Assembly: GCA_019359045.1 (NCBI GenBank)
Contig: JAHHIA010000002.1
Location: forward strand, 614,401 to 678,400
From: Scytolyngbya sp. HA4215-MV1
GTDB taxonomy: Bacteria; Cyanobacteriota; Cyanobacteriia; Leptolyngbyales; Leptolyngbyaceae
Direction of reading: 5' to 3'
DNA length: 64,000 nucleotides
Positions 12,671 to 55,080 of this stretch are shown piece after piece. The notes below the pieces were generated by a model, which was not told where the DNA came from, did no database searches, and was given only the letters and a program-made list of their open reading frames with translations. Positions within the stretch are counted from its first letter, which is position 1; each line of letters opens with the position of its first letter. The position numbers and the translations under genes are program-made.

Positions 12671-13098
12671 AGGAGGGGAGTAGGCGCAGGCGGTTGCGGA
12701 CGGGGAATGGCTCTGCCAAACCTGCCAGTCTGAGGAAAGTCCGGGCTCCCGAAAGACCAAACTTGCTGGGTAACGCCCAGTGCGAGCGATCGTGAGGAAA
12801 GTGCCACAGAAACATACCGCCGATGGAGTTTCTAGCTAGCAGCGAAAGCTGATTGCGAAGGCTCACAGGTAAGGGTGCAAGGGTGCGGTAAGAGCGCACC
12901 AGCAGCATCGAGAGGTGCTGGCTCGGTAAACCCCGGTTGGGAGCAAGGTCGAAGGGGCAAGGGTTGGTCTTTTTCCTAGCTCCGTGCAAAGGTACCGCTT
13001 GAGGTGTTTGGTAACAAACATCCCAGATAGATAACTGCCCTCTACTTTGCTTCGGTAATTTGGAGAACAGAACCCGGCTTATGTCTTGCTCCCCTCCT
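12671..13098 (+). ncRNA. rnpB: RNase P RNA, cyanobacterial type A
   Basis: The catalytic RNA that matures the 5' ends of tRNAs. Recognised from the conserved core: GAGGAAAGTCCGGGCTC near 12730, the ACAGAAA segment near 12808, GGTAAACCCC near 12926 and the 3' core AGATAGATAACTGCC near 13025. The ends pair as P1: AGGAGGGGAG at 12671 with CTCCCCTCCT at 13089-13098. The length of about 428 nt is usual for cyanobacteria. The long open frame on the opposite strand is an artefact of this structured RNA. Confidence 0.97.
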
Positions 13099-52284: not shown

Positions 52285-52947
52285 TCATTTCCAAAGTTTA
52301 CCCAGAGGAGATTGCTTAAGCCAATTTAAGAACTGGTTGCGATCGGCGGCGGGTAAATCTTGCAATAACTCACCAACCTGCTCAGCAAAACTGGTATTCC
52401 CAAAATATCGCTTACCGATGCGATGAAGTTCTTGCAGCAACGTATTGAGATGGTGTTCTTGCCAGTTGGGCACCTGCCCAGACTGTAAAGGATCGGCTGT
52501 CAGTAAATATTTCACTGCATCAGGGGTCTCTGCCTGGGGAAACCGCCATTGCTTCATCACCTCAGTGATATCTTTTTGGAAACCAGTGGCTTGTTTCGCA
52601 CCAAATAAGTCTTCAATATCGAGGTAGACGGCTTGCAGGATGAGCAAACAAGCCTGGGTCAATCCTGGCGGTGATTCCCCACTTGCTGCAGCATCTGTTT
52701 CAATCTGATCCAGCCGAATCTTCCCCCACACACTGTAGCGCTCTGGCTCTTCTAACAGAACGCAGGCTTTGCCCTGGTTGTCTGTCAAGTCGCGCCAAAA
52801 AGCTTTGGCATCCTCTTCCTGGCTGGCATTAAAGACACTAATCAGCCGGAATGTCTGTCCCTGATAGGTAAGAATCGGAATTTGTTGGTCCTTTTTAGGA
52901 TGCTGGACGTTTGAGATTTCAACATCCTGCCTTTTCAGAATAAACAT
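52285..52947 (-). CDS. Conserved cyanobacterial protein of unknown function
   Basis: A 220-residue soluble protein. The N-terminal half is a beta-rich module (TYQGQTFRLISVFNASQEEDAKAFW, then ACVLLEEPERYSVWGKIRLDQ). The second half is helical (LTQACLLILQAVYLDIEDLFGAKQA, HLNTLLQELHRIGKRYFG). Clean cyanobacterial codon use and a plausible ATG make it real. I believe it belongs to a family known only from cyanobacteria (perhaps that named after Npun_F0813), but this is from memory. It flanks the DnaA-box region, transcribed away from it. Confidence 0.65.
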   Translation of the reverse strand: MFILKRQDVEISNVQHPKKDQQIPILTYQGQTFRLISVFNASQEEDAKAFWRDLTDNQGKACVLLEEPERYSVWGKIRLDQIETDAAASGESPPGLTQACLLILQAVYLDIEDLFGAKQATGFQKDITEVMKQWRFPQAETPDAVKYLLTADPLQSGQVPNWQEHHLNTLLQELHRIGKRYFGNTSFAEQVGELLQDLPAADRNQFLNWLKQSPLGKLWK

Positions 52948-53432
52948 GACACTACCAATGAACTCCTATCAGGGCTGGGGGTGTCAGGCGGGTGAAGCAC
53001 TACAGAAATTGCTCATCGGGAAAAGCCCCAGTTTAGGAGCAAGTTGCTTTGCTCATGCCGTCGTGACTAACACACTACTTTAACTAAAGCCATTGTGTGG
53101 CTTCTTTTGTACATATTATTCCCTAGCATCGGGAAGCGATCGTCCTAAGTAAATCAGGACTGATATCAATTCTGGATTCAGAAAACCCAGGGCTACATCA
53201 GGAAGCTTGAACATTCTAAAGCTTAAAGTCTGTAATATAACAGCCTCAGATTATTATTCACACCCTTCTGCCAAATCCATCGACCTTGGGACCTTTACGA
53301 TTCACAACACAATTCGGTCATAAAGCCACCCCCCGCCTGCCTTCTATTAGGAGGCAGGTCAAAGACATAAACGGTCTACACCCATGCCTGAAGCCGATCC
53401 CAATGCCCGAAGACAGATTGAACAAACTGCCT

Positions 53433-53470
53433 TTGCTCAGTCCTATCCAGTGCTGGATAGGACTGAGCAA
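53433..53470. repeat. 38-nt near-perfect palindrome
   Basis: TTGCTCAGTCCTATCCAG (53433-53450) is followed after two bases by its exact reverse complement (53453-53470), then CTTTTG. It is followed by TCTGCTCT-C-AGAGCAGA (53497-53513) and AATCAG-T-CTGATT (53513-53525). A looser pair CCTGCCT/AGGCAGG lies at 53336-53358. These could be terminators, structural RNA or protein-binding sites. Confidence 0.85.
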
Positions 53471-53609
53471 CTTTTGCATCACCCATCATCAAAAAATCTG
53501 CTCTCAGAGCAGAATCAGTCTGATTTTGAACCCTCTCAAACAGATGTCAGCAGAGAATGAGCAGCCATCCCGCAGACAGCCGCAATTTGGCACTTCAGAA
53601 ACTCCTGAC

Positions 53610-54088
53610 TTTTCCACATTTTGCAATTCTTATTTTTCGCCCAAGTTTTCCCCACGTATTCCACAGAGTTTCCACAGGTGAGTGGGATCTTTTCCACAGG
53701 TTAAGGAAAGTTTTCCACAGGGTTGAACGAGAGAATAAGGCTTTGGGGGATTGCTGGGGATTTCTTGGCTAGCACGTCCAATTCACATGGGAAAGGAATT
53801 TTTGTTTAGAAATATTACAAAAAATAGGCTGAAACCCTTATTGTTTCGTTGAGGCGTTTTGGGTAAGCGTAGATTTGCAACATTTTGCAGCATTGACAAC
53901 CCCACCCCCTCATAGCGCAGAATGATGCGACCAACCTAAAAAGTGTCCGGCTTTTTCCACAAAGCCGCTGAAAAAACTTCGTCTGGCACGTTGCTCTCAA
54001 GCCAGGTTCATTCCTGTTCAAAGGGTGGAGTTCTGTGGGTCTATGCACAGAAATGTTTGTGCTGCCTTGTTTTCACAAGTTTTCCACA
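53610..54088. other. oriC: Cluster of TTTTCCACA DnaA boxes, candidate oriC
   Basis: Five exact copies of the cyanobacterial DnaA box TTTTCCACA occur in one orientation at 53610, 53690, 53711, 53953 and 54080. Three one-mismatch copies lie among them: TTTTCCCCA at 53646, TATTCCACA at 53657 and GTTTCCACA at 53668. Such density is far above chance. The AT-rich stretch at 53790-53830 would suit unwinding. Alternatives are a DnaA-titration site or a DnaA-controlled promoter for the DUF2811/hemJ genes. Confidence 0.55.
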
Positions 54089-54148: not shown

Positions 54149-54352
54149 ATGATGAACGCAACGGTTAGTATCCTGGCAGAAATTCCTGAAGGTCTTCATG
54201 ATTCGCTCAGAATGTATTTGGAAACCCATCCTGATTGGGATCACGATCGCGTCTTTGCGGCTGCGTTATCGCTCTTTTTGTTGCAGAATGGAGATTCCGA
54301 TCGCCGGGCAGCACGGGTTTATCTCGACACGTTGTTCAAGCACCCAGTCTAG
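54149..54352 (+). CDS. Small DUF2811-type cyanobacterial protein
   Basis: A 67-residue protein, MMNATVSILAEIPEGLHDSL, with helix LETHPDWDHDRVFAAALSLFLLQNG and end ARVYLDTLFKHPV. The pattern fits the small cyanobacterial DUF2811 family, with a ribbon-helix-like character, hence possible DNA binding. A GAGG lies eight bases upstream of two adjacent ATG codons (54149 and 54152). It starts just downstream of the last DnaA box, and hemJ follows after a heptamer-repeat spacer. Confidence 0.75.
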   Translation: MMNATVSILAEIPEGLHDSLRMYLETHPDWDHDRVFAAALSLFLLQNGDSDRRAARVYLDTLFKHPV

Positions 54353-54425: not shown

Positions 54426-54486
54426 CTGAAATCTAGAATCTTCAATCTCGGCGTTTTGATCTGCAATTTCTTGGGGGCGATTGTCC

Positions 54487-55080
54487 ATGGCTTACTCCTG
54501 GTTTAAGGCATTCCATATTGTTGGGTTTGTTTGCTGGTTCGCTGGCATGTTTTACCTGCCTCGGTTGTTTGTGTATCATGCGGAAGCAAACGAACAGCCC
54601 GAACCTGCTCGCAGCATTCTGAAAAACCAGTATCAGATTATGGAAAAACGCCTCTACAGCATTATTATGACTCCGGCAATGCTGTTGACAATCGCCATGG
54701 CGATCGGGCTGGTCACCACAGAGCCAGATGTTTTGAAACAGCCTTGGCTGCATGTCAAGCTTGCCTGTGTCCTATTTCTACTGGGCTATCACCACTACTG
54801 CAAGCGGATTATGAAAAAACTGGCAGCAGATGAGTGTCAGATGACGGGGCAACATTTTCGCTGGTTTAATGAGCTGCCGACAATATTTTTTGTCATCGTT
54901 GTGATGCTGGCAGTGTTTAAGAATAGCCTGCCTGCCGATGGCACGACTTGGACGATTGTGGCAATGGTCGTTGCGATGGCTGTAACAATTCAGCTCTATG
55001 CCCGTAAGCGGCGTCTAGACAGAGAGCGTTTGGCTGCGGAGGCAATGAGTTCTGAAAGCCCGACTGGGGCAGGTGCTTAA
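54487..55080 (+). CDS. hemJ: Protoporphyrinogen IX oxidase HemJ
   Basis: Oxidises protoporphyrinogen IX to protoporphyrin IX, the last step shared by haem and chlorophyll synthesis, in the membrane. From the ATG at 54487 it has 197 residues. The start AYSWFKAFHIVGFVCWFAGMFYLPRLFVYHAEA carries the conserved haem-type His positions and the second helix is MEKRLYSIIMTPAMLLTIAMA. Four hydrophobic segments. KLACVLFLLGYHHYCKR and FRWFNELPTIFFVIVVMLAV are family-specific. Cyanobacteria with HemJ generally lack HemG. The C-terminal tail (RERLAAEAMSSESPTG) is unique. It ends at a strong terminator before tatC. Confidence 0.95.
   Translation: MAYSWFKAFHIVGFVCWFAGMFYLPRLFVYHAEANEQPEPARSILKNQYQIMEKRLYSIIMTPAMLLTIAMAIGLVTTEPDVLKQPWLHVKLACVLFLLGYHHYCKRIMKKLAADECQMTGQHFRWFNELPTIFFVIVVMLAVFKNSLPADGTTWTIVAMVVAMAVTIQLYARKRRLDRERLAAEAMSSESPTGAGA

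Follow-up and report, generated by a model that had tools for sequence, protein, structure and literature searches.

DnaA-box groups that lie apart from oriC are known from Escherichia coli, in which datA, DARS1 and DARS2 are intergenic, keep their chromosomal position relative to oriC, and drive DnaA-ATP hydrolysis or ADP release with the help of IHF or Fis. In Bacillus subtilis, intergenic DnaA-binding clusters outside of oriC regulate transcription (Ishikawa 2007, cited in PMC7198777). For cyanobacteria, published accounts state that DnaA binds TTTTCCACA in vitro, as pairs and not as single boxes (PMC4674748), and that in S. elongatus the binding of oriC seems to be better with the ATP form (PMC6478999). 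An oriC beside dnaN, such as that of Cyanothece 51142, carries several intergenic copies of this same box (PMC4674748). Deletion of dnaA is described as leaving growth unaffected in Synechocystis, Nostoc 7120 and PCC 7002, and the role of DnaA is stated to be unclear in those cyanobacteria that keep dnaA yet replicate without it (PMC7198777).

The window (the whole stretch of 64,000 nucleotides that was analyzed) contains a group of these boxes in the intergenic region upstream of a DUF2811 gene. Exact TTTTCCACA occurs five times, at 53610, 53690, 53711, 53953 and 54080, always on the forward strand, whereas shuffled versions of the window contained a mean of 0.92 exact copies, and none of 100 shuffles reached five. 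Three boxes with one mismatch, at 53646, 53657 and 53668, lie within the cluster. A motif scan therefore confirmed the original prediction of five exact and three one-mismatch boxes in a single orientation (53610-54088), and its description of the flanking genes as divergent, with neither dnaA nor dnaN adjoining, also held (dnaA is on contig C23 and dnaN on contig C5). The AT-rich DNA that it placed beside the cluster is indeed adjacent, but is only moderately AT-rich; a maximum of 44 A/T per 60 bases is reached, in stretches that start at 53787 and beyond, and the GC content of the window is 49.5%. The features of the locus are as follows.

52285-52947, reverse strand: DUF7469 gene, the divergent upstream neighbor (Pfam)
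53610-53618, forward strand: outlying exact box, directly before the conserved flank motif (some relatives are similar, e.g., L013 and L021)
53620-53633, forward strand: conserved motif TTTGCAATTCTTAT preceding the array (27-locus alignment; core kept in three dnaA-less genomes)
53646-53719, forward strand: core DnaA-box array, consisting of TTTTCCCCA at 53646, TATTCCACA at 53657, GTTTCCACA at 53668, and TTTTCCACA at 53690 and 53711 (box scan; conserved in the 27-locus alignment; exact boxes tallied at 134 distinct loci)
53804-53849, forward strand: conserved AT-rich block, downstream of the array and ahead of the candidate promoter, of the type TGTAAC-AAAAA ... AAACCCTTATT-TTTCGT (27-locus alignment)
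53893-53923, forward strand: candidate promoter, with TTGACA at 53893-53898, a 19-bp spacer and CAGAAT at 53918-53923 (conservation)
53953-53961, forward strand: exact box behind the candidate promoter, outside the conserved core
54080-54088, forward strand: exact box some 60 bp ahead of the DUF2811 gene, outside the conserved core
54149-54352, forward strand: DUF2811 gene, 67 amino acids (Pfam PF10929, E 3.9e-29)
54481-55080, forward strand: downstream neighbor of the UPF0093 family, HemJ type (Pfam)

The boxes of the core array follow one another on one strand at steps of 11, 11, 22 and 21 bp, and 182 bp separate the first base of the last core box from that of the TTGACA in the candidate promoter. 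We name this element as a candidate for the DUF2811 promoter by its conservation; a consensus scan limited to spacers of 16-18 bp did not report it. A few other DUF2811 loci likewise have a single box in the region from about -50 to -95. A mechanical open reading frame at 53286-53681, which overlaps four of the boxes wholly or partly, has no Pfam match and was taken as spurious. In a search of the whole window with Rfam at gathering thresholds, the sole match was a class A RNase P RNA gene at 12677-13096, with none at the array, although the intergenic region of the array may encode an RNA of a new kind.

The original prediction had proposed the cluster as a candidate replication origin, to be supported by a cumulative GC-skew minimum or a copy-number peak at about 53.7 kb and refuted by a skew minimum far away together with a flat copy-number profile. 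The skew gave the refuting outcome, with a minimum on a different contig, at C5:247291, and the window cluster is not oriC. In the whole genome (6.6 Mb in 33 contigs), exact TTTTCCACA occurs 75 times compared to 56 for the reversed motif, and just two dense groups of exact boxes are present, namely the window cluster and the following.

G000:C5:247616-247813 (L008, about 1408-1605), both strands: seven exact boxes beside dnaN and the skew minimum; likely oriC

Over 400 kb of C5, the skew minimum lies approximately 0.3 kb from this cluster, with sums of -1772 for the 100 kb to its left and +1984 to its right, and the cluster is adjoined by a match to the dnaN C-terminal domain at C5:246217-246579. 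At the window array, the 20-kb sums are +227 on the left and +308 on the right (where the contig continues for 27 kb), so that the skew does not switch. A location next to dnaN is common, although not universal, for oriC in cyanobacteria, and the C5 cluster is likely to be the oriC of this genome. The window array has the cluster of boxes in common with such an origin, but dnaN and a skew minimum are both missing there, its boxes all lie on a single strand, and it keeps a fixed spacing to the TTGACA that precedes DUF2811. The DUF2811 gene also has no fixed place with respect to dnaN, as the distance between the two ranges from 0.03 to 0.99 of half the chromosome in 26 single-contig genomes, with some excess of far positions (KS p 0.03).

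With the B. subtilis clusters, the window array shares the form of a DnaA-box group outside of oriC and near a gene start, although it precedes a different gene and its binding by DnaA is predicted. We know of no description, for the B. subtilis clusters, of regular phasing, a fixed 183-bp distance, or a class-wide correlated loss with dnaA. It likewise resembles datA and the DARS sites in lying outside of oriC, but is tied to one gene and the copies of that gene, and not to a chromosomal position. Among the titles and abstract openings listed for cyanobacterial DnaA, in a literature mostly outside subscription journals, we found no description of this array.

The array is widely conserved. 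DUF2811 is present in all 29 genomes searched as relatives (source genome included), and at 18 of the 30 loci from this set, a pair of exact forward boxes, spaced by 21 bp, lies upstream of the gene. For a larger comparison, 145 loci were pooled (the 30 of the relatives, 8 more, 27 of 29 new loci, the other two being repeats of earlier ones, and 80 of 438 relatives from a named collection), and removal of 11 whose final 300 bp of upstream sequence duplicate those of another locus left 134 distinct loci, a sample that is biased toward proteins most like the DUF2811 of the window. Within 800 bp upstream of DUF2811, these contain 218 exact boxes in the direction of the gene and 7 in reverse, compared to 2 forward and 1 reverse downstream of it, and to 3 forward and 0 reverse upstream for the reversed motif. 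At least one exact forward box is present at 125 of the 134 loci, and at least two, on either strand, at 69; with repeats included, the counts are 238 forward and 7 reverse boxes, with 135 loci having a forward box and 75 having two or more. Two of the nine loci with no exact forward box have less than 400 bp of upstream sequence. In an alignment of 27 loci, the conserved order is TTTGCAATTCTTAT, the boxes (corresponding to window positions 53646-53719), the AT-rich block, CATTGACA, and a CACAAT-like hexamer. Most Nostocales loci among the 80 from the named collection retain a smaller array, of a single exact box plus a single near box.

Between the last exact box and TTGACA, the distance is 182-184 bp at 86 of the 116 loci where it could be measured (the 134 minus 18 with no exact box or no TTGACA behind a box), with a median deviation of 1 bp, and takes other values at 30. 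Kinship among the loci inflates these counts; by family, for the 20 families of the relative and further genome sets, the 182-184 bp spacing is seen at 30 of 50 measurable loci and in 11 families, and in family f25 the spacing ranges from 142 to 191 bp. In contrast, the distance from TTGACA to the DUF2811 gene varies freely, from 34 to 414 bp, with a median deviation of about 31 bp, which suggests that the array and the promoter are held in register. The same arrangement accompanies additional copies of the gene. Thirteen of 18 second chromosomal copies of DUF2811 have an exact forward box upstream, and one of the five lacking it is cut by a contig end. DUF2811 was also found on 13 plasmids. 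Plasmid1 of Nostoc sp. HK-01 (L190) has two exact boxes and a TTGACA 182 bp behind the last of them, Acaryochloris pMB01 (L189) has one forward and one reverse box at DUF2811, and Leptolyngbya boryana pLBA carries the gene with no exact box. From these sequences, array and gene appear to move together as a unit.

The presence of the DUF2811 gene is correlated with that of dnaA. Among 289 genomes of at least 95% completeness, DUF2811 is found in 281 of the 283 with dnaA and in one of the six without it; dnaA is absent from 6, DUF2811 from 7, and both from five (Fisher p 7.7e-9, with kinship ignored). The two exceptions with dnaA but no DUF2811, G042 and G144, are assemblies of 380 and 460 contigs, respectively; because HemJ is also absent from G144, this genome fits an assembly gap, whereas G042 does not. 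In one order, 49 of 389 genomes, from several families, have no dnaA match at E 0.001, and six more have weak matches only. An enlarged set of 27 genomes without a normal dnaA was assembled from 20 of the 49, G137, and the six with weak matches (E 1.5e-12 to 4e-4, compared to about 1e-65 normally), and includes the six of the first set. DUF2811 is present in 3 of these 27, compared to 11 of 11 relatives that have dnaA; of the 24 in which both genes are missing, 22 still have HemJ, a frequent neighbor of DUF2811. The split runs inside three genera (g164, g139 and g86, the two dnaA-poor genomes of g86 having weak matches), so several of the losses were probably independent. Since there are two dnaA-containing genomes without DUF2811 and three dnaA-less genomes with it, the two genes are not strictly interdependent.

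In G143, G303 and G356, the three dnaA-less genomes in which DUF2811 is retained, the 800 bp upstream of the gene are devoid of exact boxes, whereas 11 of 12 controls with dnaA have at least one and the twelfth has three near boxes. In G143, the distance from the CAATTCTTA motif to TTGACA is 206 bp, compared to 274 in its dnaA-containing congener G272, and the shortfall of about 68 bp corresponds to the size of the array. In G356, the spacing from motif to TTGACA is kept, at 272 bp, and the boxes are absent. In G303, the motif and two near boxes are kept and TTGACA is absent; the lack of dnaA is least certain here because the genome is 95% complete. The motif of the type at 53620-53633 is retained in all three, and so is probably used by another factor. 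The identification of the boxes as DnaA boxes gains support from their loss in these genomes and from the in vitro binding of the motif by cyanobacterial DnaA (PMC4674748).

Tandem arrays of the same box are not confined to oriC and DUF2811. The tandem pattern was found in 87 of 116 genomes, compared to 0 of 116 for a reversed control, and many genomes have a third such place. Of 20 extra places picked by hand (L249-L268), 16 lie next to an ORF, on its 3' side, and these ORFs all fall into a single BLAST cluster; Pfam identifies the member from L250 as GMP synthase (GuaA). In all 16, the boxes read toward guaA, mostly as three exact boxes, and in 13, by our own reading of mechanical ORFs, the array lies between convergent ORFs. 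One example is the following.

L250:2991-3040: array on the 3' side of guaA, the gene being at L250:3215-4819

Among the four other extra places, L268 lies between dnaA and dnaN, and L257 is probably a DUF2811 locus. At L249:3046-3096, in genome G022, three forward tandem boxes lie beside an ORF of the NADH-quinone oxidoreductase / antiporter type. In the source genome, the surroundings of the 63 exact boxes that belong to neither dense group (55 stretches) contain no GuaA match and nowhere three boxes (one mismatch at most) within 150 bp, and GuaA was also not found in further stretches of C5 and C31. Promoter control is not expected between convergent genes, and the guaA arrays thereby count against DnaA control of DUF2811, as they imply that such arrays need not all be promoter elements.

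Several explanations of the array can be weighed on this evidence. That the cluster arose by chance and has no function is practically negligible, given the shuffled windows, and was already refuted by conservation over the 134 distinct loci. A second or conditional origin would agree with the several boxes and nearby AT-rich DNA, and with the several initiation sites of some cyanobacteria (PMC7198777), yet we regard it as very improbable, as the skew does not switch at the array while reaching a sharp minimum at the dnaN cluster, the position of DUF2811 relative to dnaN is scattered over the 26 genomes, and the window boxes occupy one strand only. The array might instead be the operator of another protein, for example of DUF2811 itself as a small DNA-binding autoregulator, with the likeness to DnaA boxes arising by convergence. 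The array does accompany 13 of 18 second chromosomal copies and two of the three plasmid copies examined, and the protein is small and, in a weak structure model (pLDDT 62), helical with no strand. However, the motif is identical in every letter to the DnaA box of cyanobacteria and makes up the dnaN cluster as well; exact boxes are missing from the three genomes that have DUF2811 but no dnaA; and no DNA-binding family was found among the Pfam matches of DUF2811, except for a weak match to a RecX helix domain (E 0.056, in 1 of 20). Such an operator is improbable in our estimation. A ribbon-helix-helix fold, guessed by eye for DUF2811, was not supported, as the low-confidence model is strandless and Foldseek returned nothing below E 4.8; families of this fold were also absent from Pfam and NCBIfam matches up to E 10. 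A search for solved relatives of DUF2811 gave no significant match (best E 1.1), and DUF2811 was not found in phages at E 1e-5.

The main rival is a control or titration site of the datA/DARS kind, in which the array would act on DnaA itself, through its storage or nucleotide state, and its placement at DUF2811 would be secondary. This is rather unlikely in our estimation, but is kept alive by the same-box tandem arrays 3' of guaA (16 of the 20 places, 13 of the 16 convergent), at which promoter control is not needed; the intergenic location outside of oriC is also as expected, and the correlated loss with dnaA fits it equally well. It is harder to reconcile with the fixed 182-184 bp to TTGACA, with the repetition of the array at second gene copies and, at the same spacing, on one of the three plasmids examined (L190), with the scattered position relative to dnaN, and with the loss of the DUF2811 gene itself along with dnaA.

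We consider it somewhat probable that the cluster is a DnaA-responsive element upstream of DUF2811, by which DnaA controls this gene, and that the DUF2811 protein works in the DnaA pathway. DnaA control of DUF2811 is the simplest explanation because it covers the phasing, the one-strand order, the fixed distance and the correlated loss together. It also makes specific the fallback of the original prediction, a regulatory or DnaA-titrating cluster, which is supported in the form of an element upstream of DUF2811. In this mechanism, DnaA, probably in its ATP form, would bind the phased one-strand array cooperatively, and the resulting complex, held about 183 bp away from TTGACA, would act on the DUF2811 promoter, while the two conserved motifs on either side of the array that are not boxes may be occupied by other factors. 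The DUF2811 protein itself would belong to the DnaA pathway, and its simplest role would be that of a partner of DnaA in a feedback loop. We infer the DnaA binding, the identity of TTGACA as the promoter, the sign of the control and the function of the protein from sequence. Against promoter control stand the loci with no exact forward box or with another spacing, the second gene copies that lack exact boxes, and the distance itself, since bacterial activators and repressors do not usually act from as far away as 183 bp. Since dnaA can be deleted with no growth effect, any DnaA control of DUF2811 is dispensable in the strains concerned.

DUF2811 is unmentioned in the literature searched, which lies mostly outside subscription journals, so an earlier notice of it is possible. 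More tentatively, DUF2811 may be an unrecognized, cyanobacteria-specific partner or regulator of DnaA that is itself under DnaA control, in a feedback loop that persists where replication no longer needs DnaA. This small protein of 67 amino acids thereby gains a candidate pathway, that of DnaA. The array and its gene would provide one site and one gene at which the role of DnaA can be tested where replication runs without it, and the array may point to further roles of DnaA in cyanobacteria.
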